NCBI GenBank assembly: GCA_023134755.1
Contig: JAGLUM010000441.1
Span: 1-5,148, forward strand
Reading direction: 5' to 3'
Source: Fidelibacterota bacterium
GTDB taxonomy: Bacteria; Fidelibacterota; Fidelibacteria; Fidelibacterales; Fidelibacteraceae
Length of the DNA stretch: 5,148 bases
Shown here: positions 1 through 5,148 of the stretch, one piece after another
Layout: the number at the start of each line of letters is the position of its first letter
How positions within the stretch are numbered: the stretch's first letter is position 1
The notes under the pieces: model-generated
Seen by the model: only the letters and a program-made list of their open reading frames with translations
Told to the model about the DNA's origin: nothing
Database searches by the model: none
Made by a program: the position numbers and the translations under genes

Positions 1-693
1 CTTAGAACAGTCGATATCATCCACTGAATCAATATCCATTTCAATTTTCTGATCATTGATATAAGCATTTAAAAGGATTCTTTCAAAGCCTCTAAGATAG
101 TCAACTTTTAATAAGGCCTTATTCTCTTTATCATATGACAGATGTTCCGTTTTCAGAGATTTTATTTTGAAAAGTTCATTTTTATATGCCATTATTCTAA
201 ATGAATTCTCGTAAGTTTTATCATCTGAATTCTCTGTAAATCTGACGGTGTACCATTGAAAATCTCCGTCATTTTTGTCGTTTTCTATTTCCGCTTTAAA
301 ATATTCGCCATAATTATATGCGTCTTCAGAATATTCTTTATTTACAATTTCAAAAAATTCCGACATTTTCAGAGGTTTGTCTGCCATAATAAAAATATCT
401 TTGTATGCCTTTTCTGCTTTTTTAACGAGATCGGTATCAACTAATCCAGTTAATACTTTTTTAATTCTATCAATTATTACATCTCTATAACCAGAAAAAG
501 AAATTTCTTCTAATAACGGCTCCATTTCTGCAGATAGTTTTTTTTCCAGATCTCTTTGAAATGAATAACTGCCGAATTTATCAGCAATGACTTTTCTGAT
601 TGACAATTCTACATTTTCAGCCACCATTTTTTCCAATTCACCGGACTCAACTAATTTCTCTGTCTGTTCGTCTACTATTTTTTTAATATCCAT
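1..693 (-). CDS. Phage hypothetical protein (3' end outside the window)
   Basis: This frame is open from an ATG at 693 to the window edge with no stop, giving the first 231 residues; the C-terminus is missing. The start is well supported: GGGAG lies five bases upstream (699-703) and a strong promoter precedes it. The first 80 or so residues are acidic and helical (begins MDIKKIVDEQTEKLVESGEL), with repeated charged heptad-like stretches, a 'SYSFQRDLEKKL' segment and a 'FSGYRDVIIDRI' segment. From memory, this N-terminal pattern resembles uncharacterised proteins encoded near head genes of many siphophages and prophages, but I cannot name a function. The rest is mixed and acidic, ending in an Asp-rich run. 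It has no signal peptide or membrane segment, so it is probably cytoplasmic or virion-associated. It is transcribed separately from the head operon to its right, from its own promoter. Confidence 0.82.
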   Translation of the reverse strand, partial: MDIKKIVDEQTEKLVESGELEKMVAENVELSIRKVIADKFGSYSFQRDLEKKLSAEMEPLLEEISFSGYRDVIIDRIKKVLTGLVDTDLVKKAEKAYKDIFIMADKPLKMSEFFEIVNKEYSEDAYNYGEYFKAEIENDKNDGDFQWYTVRFTENSDDKTYENSFRIMAYKNELFKIKSLKTEHLSYDKENKALLKVDYLRGFERILLNAYINDQKIEMDIDSVDDIDCSK

Positions 694-1199: not shown

Positions 1200-1228
1200 A
1201 AAAAACCCCCCTATATTCTAAGAGGGTT
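1200..1228 (-). terminator. Rho-independent terminator of the head operon, possibly bidirectional
   Basis: On the minus strand, AACCCTCT...AGGGGGGTT forms a short GC stem with one mismatch and an AT-rich loop, followed directly by six T's (1205-1200). It begins only a few bases after the stop of the GroES-like gene. Read on the plus strand, the same hairpin is followed by TTATTAATTT, a poorer but possible U-tract, so it could also stop the convergent cassette ending at 1140. Confidence 0.75.
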
Positions 1229-1234
1229 ATTAAT

Positions 1235-1546
1235 TTACAATACCGCAAGAACATCCTGTTCAGATAAAATGGTATAATCATAAAGGCCATTAGAAAATTT
1301 AAATCCGGTGAACGGCTGATGAATTATAAATACACCTTTCTGAATATCCATATTATTCAGCTCTCCGATCCCTGCCACCTCAGTAATATTATCAGGTTCT
1401 TTTTTCCCGACTTCTGTCTGTGCTGCCACAACTATTCCCGAATCCCGTTTTTCCCATCCATCATTTTTCTCCGGACTTTTTGTTCTGATCAGCAATCGAT
1501 TCCCGGATACTTTTAATTTTTCAATATCTATTTCTTTGAAATTCAT
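1235..1546 (-). CDS. Phage GroES-like co-chaperonin (chaperonin-10 family)
   Basis: This 103-residue protein aligns along its length with GroES (97 residues in E. coli). Residues 11-21 (LKVSGNRLLIR) match the first strands (IRPLHDRVIVK). Residues 22-46 form a mobile loop containing GIVV (37-40), equivalent to the GIVL tripeptide that docks on GroEL. EVAGIGE (56-62) matches LAVGNGR. DIQKGVFIIH (67-76) matches VKVGDIVIF. The end, SEQDVLAVL (95-103), matches SESDILAIV. The mobile loop is longer than in GroES and the roof hairpin after GIGE is shortened, as happens in phage co-chaperonins such as T4 gp31. It should form a cytoplasmic heptameric cap on a GroEL ring, probably host-encoded, for folding a capsid or other virion protein. 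It is the last gene of the head operon; its ATG overlaps the upstream TGA (1543-1546), and GGAG lies five bases before the start. Confidence 0.87.
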   Translation of the reverse strand: MNFKEIDIEKLKVSGNRLLIRTKSPEKNDGWEKRDSGIVVAAQTEVGKKEPDNITEVAGIGELNNMDIQKGVFIIHQPFTGFKFSNGLYDYTILSEQDVLAVL

Positions 1547-1797
1547 ACAGACTCCGAATCACAGGATATTGTAGAATCGATAATCGATATTTCAGTATCG
1601 GATATTTCCCTATAAGCATCTTCAAAAGTTTTCTTTGGCGACCAGCTCTTATATCCATCAGGATATTCAACCATATAACCGGTTCTGGATAGTTGACCTT
1701 CTTTTAAATCTTTTCCTTTGAACTTTCTATCAAATTCACGCTCACCCATTTCTACCGCTTTAATAATCTTTGTACCAATGTACGCTTTCATTTCCAT
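1543..1797 (-). CDS. Small conserved phage protein (YIGTK ... YPDGYxSWSPK type)
   Basis: This 84-residue protein carries MKAYIGTKIIKAVEM near its start and YMVEYPDGYKSWSPKKTFED in the middle (about residues 41-60), then an 'AYRE' and an acidic Ser/Thr-rich tail. From memory, this combination (YIGTK at the N-terminus, YPDGYxSWSPKxxFExAYR later) is typical of a widespread small phage hypothetical protein with no assigned function. The usual central segment between the two motifs is short here. Two starts are possible: ATG at 1797, with GGAG eight bases upstream, or ATG at 1791, which overlaps the preceding stop as ATGA and matches the usual family N-terminus. It overlaps the co-chaperonin start by four bases. 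Confidence 0.8.
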   Translation of the reverse strand: MEMKAYIGTKIIKAVEMGEREFDRKFKGKDLKEGQLSRTGYMVEYPDGYKSWSPKKTFEDAYREISDTEISIIDSTISCDSESV

Positions 1798-2066: not shown

Positions 2067-2516
2067 TTACTTATCTAACAATATAACATTACCAGAGAAC
2101 TTTTGCAATACAGAGTTTTCTTTCATACCGATAACCGCATTAAACTGCTTATCCGGCAAGCCCAGAAAACATTCACATTTAGCCGGATCGTTTTTACATC
2201 CCGTACACCCCGGATATTTCCGGTAGTTTCCACATGTCCTGATCAGATCTATATCTTCTATTTTTCTGTCGTCTATAATTTTTATACCTTGCTTATGGAA
2301 ATCAGCCCTTTTCTTTTTATCGGACTCAACCACATAATACTGCCCGGAAAAATCACAGGCCATTAGTATTTTATATGTTGTCCCGTCCATAGGACAGACA
2401 TCAAGAATATTACCGGATAAATCCATGACAGAATTAAATATTTTTTTAATAATATTATCTTTTAATTTAGAATCTCTGTATATTTCAAGAATTTTTTGCC
2501 TGTCTAAGTTTTTCAA
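2067..2516 (-). CDS. Cysteine-rich protein with methyltransferase-like layout (function unproven)
   Basis: I place the start at a TTG (2516) because AGGAG lies eight bases before it, giving 149 residues. The longer frame from a TTG at 2555 has no ribosome binding site and overlaps the head gene by 71 bases. Numbered from 2555, the pattern suggests a class I methyltransferase-like Rossmann fold: a motif I-like GNILDVCPMDGTT (48-60), a strand ending in an acid (YYVVESDKK, 73-81), IKIIDDRKIED (91-101) and a strand FNAVIGM (138-144). Between the last two sits a cluster C108-x8-C117-x2-C120-x6-C127-x-C129, which could bind zinc or an iron-sulfur cluster. The glycine-rich loop is degenerate, so catalysis is doubtful. 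I do not recognise a named family. It overlaps the minor head gene by 32 bases. Confidence 0.7.
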   Translation of the reverse strand: MKNLDRQKILEIYRDSKLKDNIIKKIFNSVMDLSGNILDVCPMDGTTYKILMACDFSGQYYVVESDKKKRADFHKQGIKIIDDRKIEDIDLIRTCGNYRKYPGCTGCKNDPAKCECFLGLPDKQFNAVIGMKENSVLQKFSGNVILLDK

Positions 2517-3582
2517 TGGCTTTGCTCCTGTATTTCGATCCCGTTTTATATCCAAGATCTTTTTCTGCTATATTATGAATCTGGGTTTTAGAAACCAGCC
2601 ATTTTCTTCTGCATCTGCAATTAATGTCCTGCCCCGGAGGCCCTGTCTCCTCCGGTGGAAAATCTACATGGAATATTTTATTATTATTTGCCCTGTGGGT
2701 TTCACGCTCTCTATTATCATCCGATCCACTCCAGATATACCATAACATTCCGGCATCACGTCCACGGGCTTCCTCCAGTGCTGAAAAAACCTTCTGAGTC
2801 TGATCACGGGCAATAGTTGTCGCCCGTGTTTTATTGATACCTTCTATTTCCATCAGCTGTTCTATTAAACTGGTTTTCTCCGGGATTGCTTTTAATTCTA
2901 CTTTTGATGCTTTTAAGATAATATCTGCAAGATCAAATACCTGCGGTTCTTCTACCGGTGTTGCCTGTAGTACTTTCTTTTTAGACATTTTTTTTGTTTT
3001 TTTACCGGGAATAGATGTTTCCGGTTCTGGAAGATCTATTCCTATCTGAGAAAAAACCATTCTCTGTATATCGTTAAAATATTTATCGGGAAGATTCCCT
3101 ATTAAAAATACATTTTGAAATACAGCATCAGATAATTGATCCTCTACATTTCGTTCGCCCAGTACAGGTTCAACAATTTCCAGTCCTATAGCCTCTGCAT
3201 TCCGTTTAAATTTTCTATTCTGATCTTTGTTTACAGACGACGTAAAATCTATTGATATTTTTTCAGCAGCATCTTTTCTGTTCTGATTTGCATTTTCCGA
3301 CCGGACTATACTGAGATTAGAAAGGAATTCTCCGATAAAACTAAAAATACTTTCTTTATCTGATTTACCGCCATATCGTTCAACCAGACCGGTTAAACTT
3401 TCTTTCATTCTTGTTGTTGCCGGTTTTAAAAAATTCCACATGTTCTTTCTATATTTATCGGATGAAGATTCCGATGGATCAGAAACATTTAAGGTTTTAA
3501 TTCCTTTTTTTGTGAGTTCTTTTCGTTTTGATCGTGTAAGAGGCCTGTTCTTTGGCCCGAATGGGTTATTTTTTCGGGGCAT
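2485..3582 (-). CDS. Minor head / head morphogenesis protein (Mu gpF, SPP1 gp7 family)
   Basis: This 365-residue protein carries the Mu-F/SPP1 gp7 signature in its C-terminal third: IARDQTQK (257-264), G-x-L-WYIWSGSDDNRERETH (278-296) and GPPGQDINCRCRRKW (314-328). This combination of R/H pair and CRCR tail is diagnostic of the family. Family members bind the portal, enter the prohead in a few copies and help head assembly or DNA ejection. The N-terminus is very basic (residues 1-30). An unusual Lys-rich, Pro/Glu-rich segment (about 184-238) separates the first helical region from the signature domain. The start ATG at 3582 shares one base with the preceding stop (TAATG) and lacks a strong ribosome binding site, so it depends on coupled translation. 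It lies downstream of the likely portal gene, as is usual. Confidence 0.9.
   Translation of the reverse strand: MPRKNNPFGPKNRPLTRSKRKELTKKGIKTLNVSDPSESSSDKYRKNMWNFLKPATTRMKESLTGLVERYGGKSDKESIFSFIGEFLSNLSIVRSENANQNRKDAAEKISIDFTSSVNKDQNRKFKRNAEAIGLEIVEPVLGERNVEDQLSDAVFQNVFLIGNLPDKYFNDIQRMVFSQIGIDLPEPETSIPGKKTKKMSKKKVLQATPVEEPQVFDLADIILKASKVELKAIPEKTSLIEQLMEIEGINKTRATTIARDQTQKVFSALEEARGRDAGMLWYIWSGSDDNRERETHRANNNKIFHVDFPPEETGPPGQDINCRCRRKWLVSKTQIHNIAEKDLGYKTGSKYRSKAIEKLRQAKNS
2525..2529 (-). promoter_or_regulatory. Ribosome binding site that decides the TTG start at 2516
   Basis: Minus-strand AGGAG lies eight bases upstream of the TTG at 2516 and inside the coding sequence of the minor head protein. 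No comparable site precedes the TTG at 2555, and there is no in-frame ATG until far into the protein. Confidence 0.6.
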
Positions 3583-3767
3583 TATTTAGACAACCATTCT
3601 GTAAAATCATCGTTACAATAATCACAACTTGTTCCACTACATGAACCCATATCGCAATAAGGACAAATTATTATATCAACATTACAATTTTCACAATAAT
3701 CTTTCTGATATAAATTCCCAGACTTACTTGTCCACGTTCTTTTTTCTTTATTAAATCTCTTTTTCAT
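3582..3767 (-). CDS. Small zinc-ribbon-like protein
   Basis: This 61-residue protein starts with a basic stretch (MKKRFNKEKR) and carries seven cysteines: C25-x2-C28, C35-x2-C38, C43-x4-C48-x2-C51. The CxxC pairs (CENC, CPYC, CDYC) suggest one or two zinc-binding knuckles. The fold is not recognisable beyond that. It is tightly linked in the operon: the ATG overlaps the upstream TGA (3764-3767), with a GAGGA seven bases before it, and the stop overlaps the minor head start by one base. Such small zinc proteins are common in phage modules as hypotheticals; nucleic-acid or protein binding is possible but unproven. Confidence 0.8.
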   Translation of the reverse strand: MKKRFNKEKRTWTSKSGNLYQKDYCENCNVDIIICPYCDMGSCSGTSCDYCNDDFTEWLSK

Positions 3768-4924
3768 TTACCATTCCTCAGCGGCTCAATAAAAAACCCA
3801 AGGGGATTGATGCGTATTTCATATCCGAATTTCTTAAGCTGTGAATCAAATACTTTTAACATAGGAATTTTTAAAAGGAATTTCCCATATTCTGCTGCGG
3901 TAATCGAAACAAACCATCCCCGGCCTATCCAGCGCATACGTGAAAATCCTAATTTCATCATTAGTTTTTTTATCAAAGGAGTAAGCAGCACTTCTGTTAT
4001 GGGGGAGACGTCAGCAATAGAAGGGTTCTCCCTTTCCAAATAACAGTGCCACTCTCCTTTATCGTCTGTCCATCCTAATTTTAAAGGAGTATTTCTCTTT
4101 CTTCCGACTTTAGACAACTCTTTTACCGCCTCTTCAATAAACGGATGATCGGGATTAATATAATAATCTGAATCTTCTTTTAAATGATCTGTAGCTATCT
4201 TTTCTGCTTCCCTGACATTATCTGTATGTTCCATTTCAATTAATATGCCAAGTACGAGGTTTGTGATAGCGTCTTTTATACGGGAGTCTTTTCTATAAAA
4301 ATCGGTTATTTTACTAGATCCAATAGATTTACCTTTTCTGGATTTATCTTTTATCATGTCTTTAAAAACCTCAATCGAAACAATATCAATCGGACCAAGA
4401 AAACCCGGTCTGTTATATTGTTCCTTAAATGCTTTTTCGACCTGCTTCTTTGTCTTGAATCCAATAAAAATCTTATCTTCATCATAGCATTTCTTCCATG
4501 GATCCTGCTGGTGGACTATAAACACAAGCTCAGAATCAAGGTCATCTCCAAGATATACATCGATTTGATCTCCATCTGCCCCCTCTGTTCTAGGGATTCT
4601 ACCATAGGCATATTTCATTTTAATAGACCAGGGTTTCCCGTTAGGATCTATACCGGAACGAATTGATCCTTTTTTATTTTCAATAGAAATATTTATCCCG
4701 TTCCATACTCTTTTTCCCTGGAGTTTATATTTATAATCTTCTTTGTCTATTAAAATACCTCTAAAATCATATGTCTGCATTTTTGCTCCCATTTGTATCG
4801 CATTATTACAATCACATCTTTTTCTTTCTTCCTGAGCATTTATTCTTTTTTTCGGAGGCCTACATTCCGGCATTGGTGTTTTTGTATGTGTATATGGGAG
4901 TTTTCTATATGTCTGCATTTTCAA
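3764..4924 (-). CDS. Phage inorganic-pyrophosphatase-like domain protein with DUF5661-like segment
   Basis: A 386-residue multidomain protein. Residues 72-190 match the phage/polyvalent-protein 'InPase' domain: NISIENKKGSIRSGIDPNGKPW (78-99), KYAYGRIPRTEGADGDQIDV (104-123), YLGDD, VHQQDP (137-142), YDEDKIFIGF (147-156) and YNRPGFLGPI (170-179). D117-G-D119-Q-I-D122-V resembles the D-x-D-x-x-D metal-binding signature of soluble pyrophosphatases. Residues 224-256 (GILIEMEHTDN...ATDHLKEDSDYY) match the DUF5661 pattern. The C-terminal 130 residues are unassigned. The N-terminal 45 residues are basic and Cys-containing. Start choice is open: TTG at 4924 overlaps the preceding TGA; ATG at 4918 follows AGGTGG by about ten bases; an internal ATG at 4780 begins a repeat of the same KMQTY-coding sequence right before the conserved domain. 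It sits between the likely portal and the minor head gene, where such proteins occur in Mu-like and siphophage modules. Its role is unknown. Confidence 0.83.
   Translation of the reverse strand: MKMQTYRKLPYTHTKTPMPECRPPKKRINAQEERKRCDCNNAIQMGAKMQTYDFRGILIDKEDYKYKLQGKRVWNGINISIENKKGSIRSGIDPNGKPWSIKMKYAYGRIPRTEGADGDQIDVYLGDDLDSELVFIVHQQDPWKKCYDEDKIFIGFKTKKQVEKAFKEQYNRPGFLGPIDIVSIEVFKDMIKDKSRKGKSIGSSKITDFYRKDSRIKDAITNLVLGILIEMEHTDNVREAEKIATDHLKEDSDYYINPDHPFIEEAVKELSKVGRKRNTPLKLGWTDDKGEWHCYLERENPSIADVSPITEVLLTPLIKKLMMKLGFSRMRWIGRGWFVSITAAEYGKFLLKIPMLKVFDSQLKKFGYEIRINPLGFFIEPLRNGK
4769..4921 (-). repeat. 15-bp direct repeat at two candidate start regions (4769-4783 and 4907-4921)
   Basis: The 15-bp sequence atatgtctgcatttt occurs twice, 138 bp (46 codons) apart and in the same reading frame. 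Each copy encodes K-M-Q-T-Y, once at the annotated N-terminus and once just before the pyrophosphatase-like domain. The intervening 46 codons are basic and include a CxC pair. This looks like an in-frame duplication or insertion at the 5' end of the gene. Confidence 0.7.
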
Positions 4925-5148
4925 TTAACCACCTTACTTGATATATATTCTGACAATGAAGCATTGATTTCCTGAGAACTTTCTTTTTTCTCTTCGCCAT
5001 AACCGGAAGGTTTATATTTCGGGCCGGGGTCGCTGTCATCAAAAAAGCCATACTCAGGCCAGACGCCGGACTCTGCTGCCTCTGCTGTTCTATCCTGCAT
5101 ATCCAGCCATTCCACATATTTGTCAGTTATAACAGAGAAAATATCACG
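4921..5148 (-). CDS. C-terminal end of an upstream structural protein, probably portal
   Basis: The frame is open from the window edge to a TGA at 4923-4921, giving the last 75 residues of a protein whose beginning is missing. The piece is acidic and polar, with VEWLDMQDRTAEAAESGVWP in its first third, then FFDDSDPGPKYKPSGYG, and a helical Ser/Glu-rich tail. It shows no diagnostic motif. A portal protein is inferred only from position: in phage head modules the portal gene normally precedes the minor head gene, and small accessory genes such as the pyrophosphatase-like one may come between. The stop overlaps the next gene's TTG start (TTGA) or lies two bases before its ATG. A GTG at 5115 is not a real start, since coding continues upstream. 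Confidence 0.65.
   Translation of the reverse strand, partial: RDIFSVITDKYVEWLDMQDRTAEAAESGVWPEYGFFDDSDPGPKYKPSGYGEEKKESSQEINASLSEYISSKVVN

Follow-up and report, generated by a model that had tools for sequence, protein, structure and literature searches.

The window examined here, a stretch of 5148 bases, is the entire contig JAGLUM010000441.1 (C381 below) of a draft bin assigned to Fidelibacterota (GCA_023134755.1; 1.85 Mb, 476 contigs). At positions 1235–1546 on its minus strand lies an open reading frame (ORF) with an ATG start that encodes a 103-residue co-chaperonin of the GroES type. By sequence, this phage gene falls into the GroES (Cpn10) family, and its mobile loop is longer than those of all ordinary GroES and gp31 proteins compared, gp31 being the counterpart from phage T4. 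The product is probably a GroES-like lid that docks on host GroEL and likely helps to fold a head protein or another structural protein of the phage. The family to which the protein belongs, the length of its loop and the order of the genes are shown by the data; the ring, its docking, the cage and the client are inferred.

The Pfam Cpn10 profile (PF00166) matches residues 11–102 of the product over profile positions 2–92 of 93, with 29.2 bits (E = 9.3e-07) against a cut-off of 21.1. T4 gp31 scores about the same in this test (30.8 bits). PHROG 3188, “co-chaperonin GroES”, matches with E = 6.2e-07, and the protein ends in SEQDVLAVL. An earlier sequence-only reading, made without database searches, had seen GroES from the first strand to this end, and the nearly end-to-end Cpn10 match and PHROG 3188 agree with it. 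The cut-off of the NCBIfam equivalog for housekeeping GroES is not reached (best 26.7 vs 120 bits). The fold is predicted to be the GroES β-barrel: the AlphaFold (AF2) model is such a barrel with a predicted local distance difference test (pLDDT) score of 86.2, and it has matches to GroES in Foldseek and VIA-align.

The protein belongs to a small family of ten, made up of itself and nine relatives. The identical protein (P0001) is also found on an 88.6-kb contig; eight of the nine relatives pass the Cpn10 cut-off, and P0007 falls under it with 17.9 bits. Lengths were counted in residues on common alignments, the loop segment being the stretch that separates the first strand from the following one, and the roof segment that which spans the roof. 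The cellular set of 37 GroES sequences came mostly from the phylum of the bin, with E. coli, one Cloacimonadota metagenome-assembled genome (MAG) and one MAG labelled as an archaeon. The viral set consisted of the best 80 of 275 IMG/VR stretches found with one canonical motif, and therefore leans towards ordinary GroES; one row of its alignment has a wrong start (N-terminus 112).

In the window protein the loop segment comprises residues 22–55 (positions 1382–1483, minus strand), a length of 34, and the family as a whole stays close to this value (32–35 residues in 10 of 10). All 37 cellular GroES proteins, including that of E. coli, have 25 residues at this place, while the 80 viral ones have 20–28 and the seven gp31 proteins 30–31. 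The likeness of the loop to that of gp31, claimed by the sequence-only reading, is thus supported, and it extends to gp31 proteins other than T4’s. Seven phage isolates that carry GroES gave 20, 25, 25, 25, 25, 26 and 29 residues, the longest loop being that of Vibrio phage Va1. Judged from these alignments, the long loop is a nearly fixed trait of the family.

Within the loop lies a hydrophobic tripeptide, IVV (residues 38–40, positions 1427–1435, minus strand), the predicted contact to GroEL. It was correctly picked out beforehand as part of a GIVV motif (G37-I38-V39-V40) and aligns with LII in the GroES of the bin and in T4 gp31 and with IVL in E. coli GroES. All ten family members have a hydrophobic tripeptide at this place. 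The added length is distributed over both sides: the arm before the tripeptide has 16 residues, compared to 15 (once 16) in gp31 and 11 in the GroES of the bin and of E. coli, and the arm after it has 15, compared to 12–13 and 11, respectively. A further feature of the family is an N-terminal extension, which in the window protein places eight residues (positions 1523–1546, minus strand) ahead of the GroES start. All ten members have 16 residues ahead of a conserved arginine, where the GroES proteins of the bin and of E. coli have eight.

The GroES gene is the last in a run of minus-strand ORFs from 5148 to 1235, in which neighbours overlap or are at most 18 bases apart, and which includes a Phage_Mu_F-type minor head protein (2485–3582), as the sequence-only reading had noted. 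The start of the GroES gene overlaps the previous stop, a Shine–Dalgarno-like GGAG (1552–1555, minus strand) precedes its ATG by 5 bases, and a terminator-like hairpin of ten pairs with a T run (1204–1228, minus strand; a consensus match only) starts 7 bases past its stop. For these reasons, the run is likely to be one transcript.

A role can be pictured by analogy with gp31. The product would form a seven-fold, heptameric lid that would dock through IVV into the apical grooves of GroEL. The longer loops may lift the dome or alter the affinity and so give a taller or differently bound cage, as reported for gp31. The available text of one paper gives mobile loops of 22 vs 16 residues by its own count for gp31 and GroES and a cage about 8% larger (PMC6318259), and according to the accessible part of another, the T4 capsid protein needs gp31 and GroES is no substitute (PMC3012670). 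As its client one would expect a structural protein of the phage, made from the same operon. The dedicated capsid-folding cap proposed by the sequence-only reading is partly supported overall; the capsid protein as client is a guess.

The family does not appear to be a close offshoot of gp31, however. In profile comparisons with hhalign, it matched nine ordinary GroES proteins with 95.7% probability (E = 9.3e-09) and the seven gp31 proteins, partially, with 42.5% (E = 2.6e-4), while GroES and gp31 matched each other with 93.4%. By these profiles ordinary GroES proteins are the closer kin of the family, and its likeness to gp31 would lie in loop length and not in close descent. The lengthening of the loop thus probably arose apart from that in gp31, although proteins of about 100 residues at such distances do not settle descent. 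A bolder proposal is that a non-T4 family reached the gp31 solution independently, its loops, the longest here, giving an enlarged cage reserved for a head protein of the same operon that is oversized or folds slowly; we regard this as possible but doubtful.

The roof of the lid cannot be used in the same way. The sequence-only reading had taken a shortened roof hairpin as a second resemblance to T4 gp31, and the roof segment (residues 62–70, positions 1337–1363, minus strand) is indeed short, with 9 residues compared to 17 in E. coli GroES and 9–12 in gp31. However, the GroES of the bin itself has 11, the nine relatives range from 8 to 25 (4 to 25 in another alignment), and 18 of the 80 IMG/VR GroES proteins have 12 or fewer. 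The count also depends on the alignment, which gives 18 or 10 for T4 gp31 and 4 or 8 for the relative P0010. A short roof, being neither phage-specific nor constant, was consequently rejected as evidence for a gp31-like adaptation.

The protein shares with bacterial GroES the (predicted) barrel, the hydrophobic tripeptide and the C-terminal strand, but differs in its loop and N-terminal extension. With gp31 it shares the lengthened loop, but the arm after the tripeptide is longer than in gp31 and its C-terminal strand is of the ordinary GroES kind. The genes are also placed differently: that for gp31 in T4 adjoins rIII, outside any head run, while the window gene is in a run with a minor head gene.

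GroES among the structural genes of a phage is already in print. Pseudoalteromonas siphovirus B8b, a different phage but likewise not T4-like, has GroES in its structural module, and in the available text its authors read this as a hint that the capsid or tail is more complex (PMC4294664). The open-licence literature searched yielded no GroES family from phages other than T4 and its kin with loops as long as or longer than those of gp31. Among the isolates, Va1 has a GroES with a long loop (29), a long N-terminus and a short roof, encoded near neck or head-completion genes. The Va1 phage differs in its size, 195 kb, and in having a neck protein of the gp13 type, and its GroES sequence matches the relative P0009 marginally (E = 0.6) and the window protein not at all. 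In length this GroES (L166:2935-3240) falls between ordinary GroES and the window family. Va1 is an isolate whose laboratory host is named, which would make it easier to test. In phage DSL-LC05, the GroES gene overlaps a structural neighbour (portal), as in the window, but the loop is short (20).

The gp31 protein is the best-known case of a phage lid changing what GroEL can fold, and the usual explanation for it rests on one phage lineage. With a second long-loop family, which groups with GroES by profile, it could be asked whether cage size and the choice of client depend on loop length as such. In this family the loop hardly varies but the roof does so widely (8–25 residues), a natural experiment in which the two features held responsible in gp31 come apart.

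Several observations weigh against a lid for a structural client. A single-sequence search of the PDB with the window protein gave weak matches only, the best being Cpn20 (E = 0.013), and the tripeptide of the relative P0004 is VLY. No gene for a capsid protein was recognised in the window. Three of the seven isolates (Hallingskeid, LIS04 and RAS14) have no head gene annotated within about 3 kb of GroES, and none is annotated in the stretch viewed around the GroES genes of immuto and SJC03. An 81-kb IMG/VR phage record that encodes a protein 66% identical to the phrog_2600 protein of the window and one matching its pyrophosphatase-like protein in two pieces (53% and 44%) shows no GroES, though the record may be incomplete. 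According to the available text of PMC3012670, gp31 homologues of the same size prefer their own capsid protein, so that more than cage size may matter. Finally, contigs of 5 kb are easily misbinned, and C381 may be such a case. The phage could then come from a different host, which makes the host GroEL an assumption.

What is known of the bin bears on this last point. Its own GroES, by which the bin falls into Neomarinimicrobiota, is 88% and 84% identical to those of two Candidatus Neomarinimicrobiota MAGs. The bin GroEL, a normal one with which the lid could act as the sequence-only reading proposed for host GroEL, has 349 identical residues over the 548 of E. coli GroEL and the same residue at eight of eight apical positions, which we take to be the sites that bind GroES and substrate. 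Within the bin, phrog_2600 and Phage_Mu_F occur on contig C381 only, and no Terminase_6N was found in it. The GC content of the window is 34.5%, compared to 35.9% for the stretch with the GroES of the bin and 38.9% for that with GroEL, a difference that is not decisive for the host.

Instead of serving a structural client, the protein could be a general booster, a lid put on host GroEL to the benefit of many proteins of phage and host alike. GroES genes are common among phages, with at least 275 IMG/VR stretches found by one motif (some maybe cellular), and the available text of one study describes GroES as a core gene of HTVC023P-type pelagiphages (PMC9599517). The contexts are varied as well. 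A PHROG scan of the neighbours of viral GroES genes took in 97 of 167 ORFs from 25 of 28 selected stretches; the best 25 of 163 matches included terminase, portal, major head, head protease, head closure and head morphogenesis proteins, and also DNA polymerase, ParB, transposase and nucleotide metabolism. Having neither a control nor a mapping to each contig, the scan supports no claim. Even gp31 can generally replace GroES, according to the accessible part of PMC6318259. However, the bin already holds a normal GroES, and a loop that is long in 10 of 10 members suggests a changed cage and not more of the same. We consider a general booster unlikely.

The long loop could also be fitted to a GroEL encoded elsewhere in the phage genome. 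GroES adjoins GroEL in Flavobacterium phage immuto, 27 of the 80 IMG/VR GroES stretches have a GroEL within the stretch examined (some are perhaps cellular), and the 88.6-kb contig of P0001 could hold one. However, unlike in immuto, none adjoins the window gene. The sequence-only reading had seen no GroEL gene, and no ORF scanned on contig C381 matched one in Pfam or PHROGs; PF00118 matched just one protein of the bin, a normal GroEL of the cellular type that has a GGM tail and is encoded on contig C56 (15.8 kb). A phage GroEL as partner is thus improbable. It is similarly improbable that the barrel now serves as a component of the virion or inhibits host GroEL: the gene does sit within a structural run, but the hydrophobic tripeptide is kept in all ten members (once as VLY), as binding to GroEL would need, and in the available text on B8b no virion peptides are listed for GroES, whereas they are for some of its neighbours in the table (PMC4294664). 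A chance or decayed ORF, or a fragment of a host gene, might be read from the modest 29.2 bits but is already contradicted by the intact frame, the nine relatives, the concord of Pfam, PHROGs and fold, and the 30.8 bits of T4 gp31, and can be dismissed. A lid on host GroEL for a phage structural protein remains the reading we prefer.

No relative of the window protein was found in INPHARED at E = 1, and tblastn with the window protein matched none of the 1355 phage records that bear gp31. Pattern scans of IMG/VR and GTDB contigs found none either, but reach limited ranges and do not indicate absence. In searches of 100 and 245 genomes of kin and of the phylum, the window was recovered, and beyond it nothing but an ordinary GroES (E = 9.3e-4). 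Many genomes of the phylum of the bin have a second ORF of about 125–175 residues that matches PF00166 weakly and often over its first half only (G036:C14:79429-79752 and G044:C62:13333-13473, for example). These are perhaps a divergent chromosomal Cpn10-like family.

The remaining ORFs of the run, whose starts are the first possible ones given by the ORF tool, all lie on the minus strand. At the contig end is the C-terminal part of an ORF (4921–5148), followed by a phage protein with an inorganic pyrophosphatase-like domain (3764–4924; PF18823, 135 bits) whose relatives, phrog_20705 and phrog_4660, are of virion or minor head type; this domain sits within the structural run. Next come a cysteine-rich ORF of 61 residues (3582–3767) and the minor head protein itself, which is of the SPP1 gp7 type (PF04233, 57.2 vs 29.6 bits; phrog_324, E = 6.6e-41; TIGR01641 over its cut-off). 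An ORF of 162 residues (2067–2555) overlaps the head gene by 71 bases and has no Pfam family over the cut-off, and one of 86 residues (1788–2048) has weak PHROG matches (E = 0.03 or worse). The last ORF before GroES, a phage ORF of 84 residues (1543–1797; phrog_9467/872), shares 4 bases with the start of the GroES gene. Relatives of this ORF were found in 25 IMG/VR stretches, of which one (L067) has a GroES gene within the DNA examined. There, the homologue lies about 0.5 kb after the GroES gene, and terminase and portal genes are on the same contig.

By eye, intein-like inserts appear to be present in the terminase at L067:925-3693 and, in the 81-kb phage, in the protein with the pyrophosphatase domain (L049:1046-2659), the family matches of both falling into separate stretches. 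In the window, no RNA family scored above threshold and no tRNA was detected. Beyond the terminator-like hairpin lies the phrog_2600 protein (1–693, minus strand), which is cut at the contig end. Between the two is a small plus-strand ORF (931–1140), the tail of which, FLIETGIYTEDGELSGEYR, looks antitoxin-like by eye.
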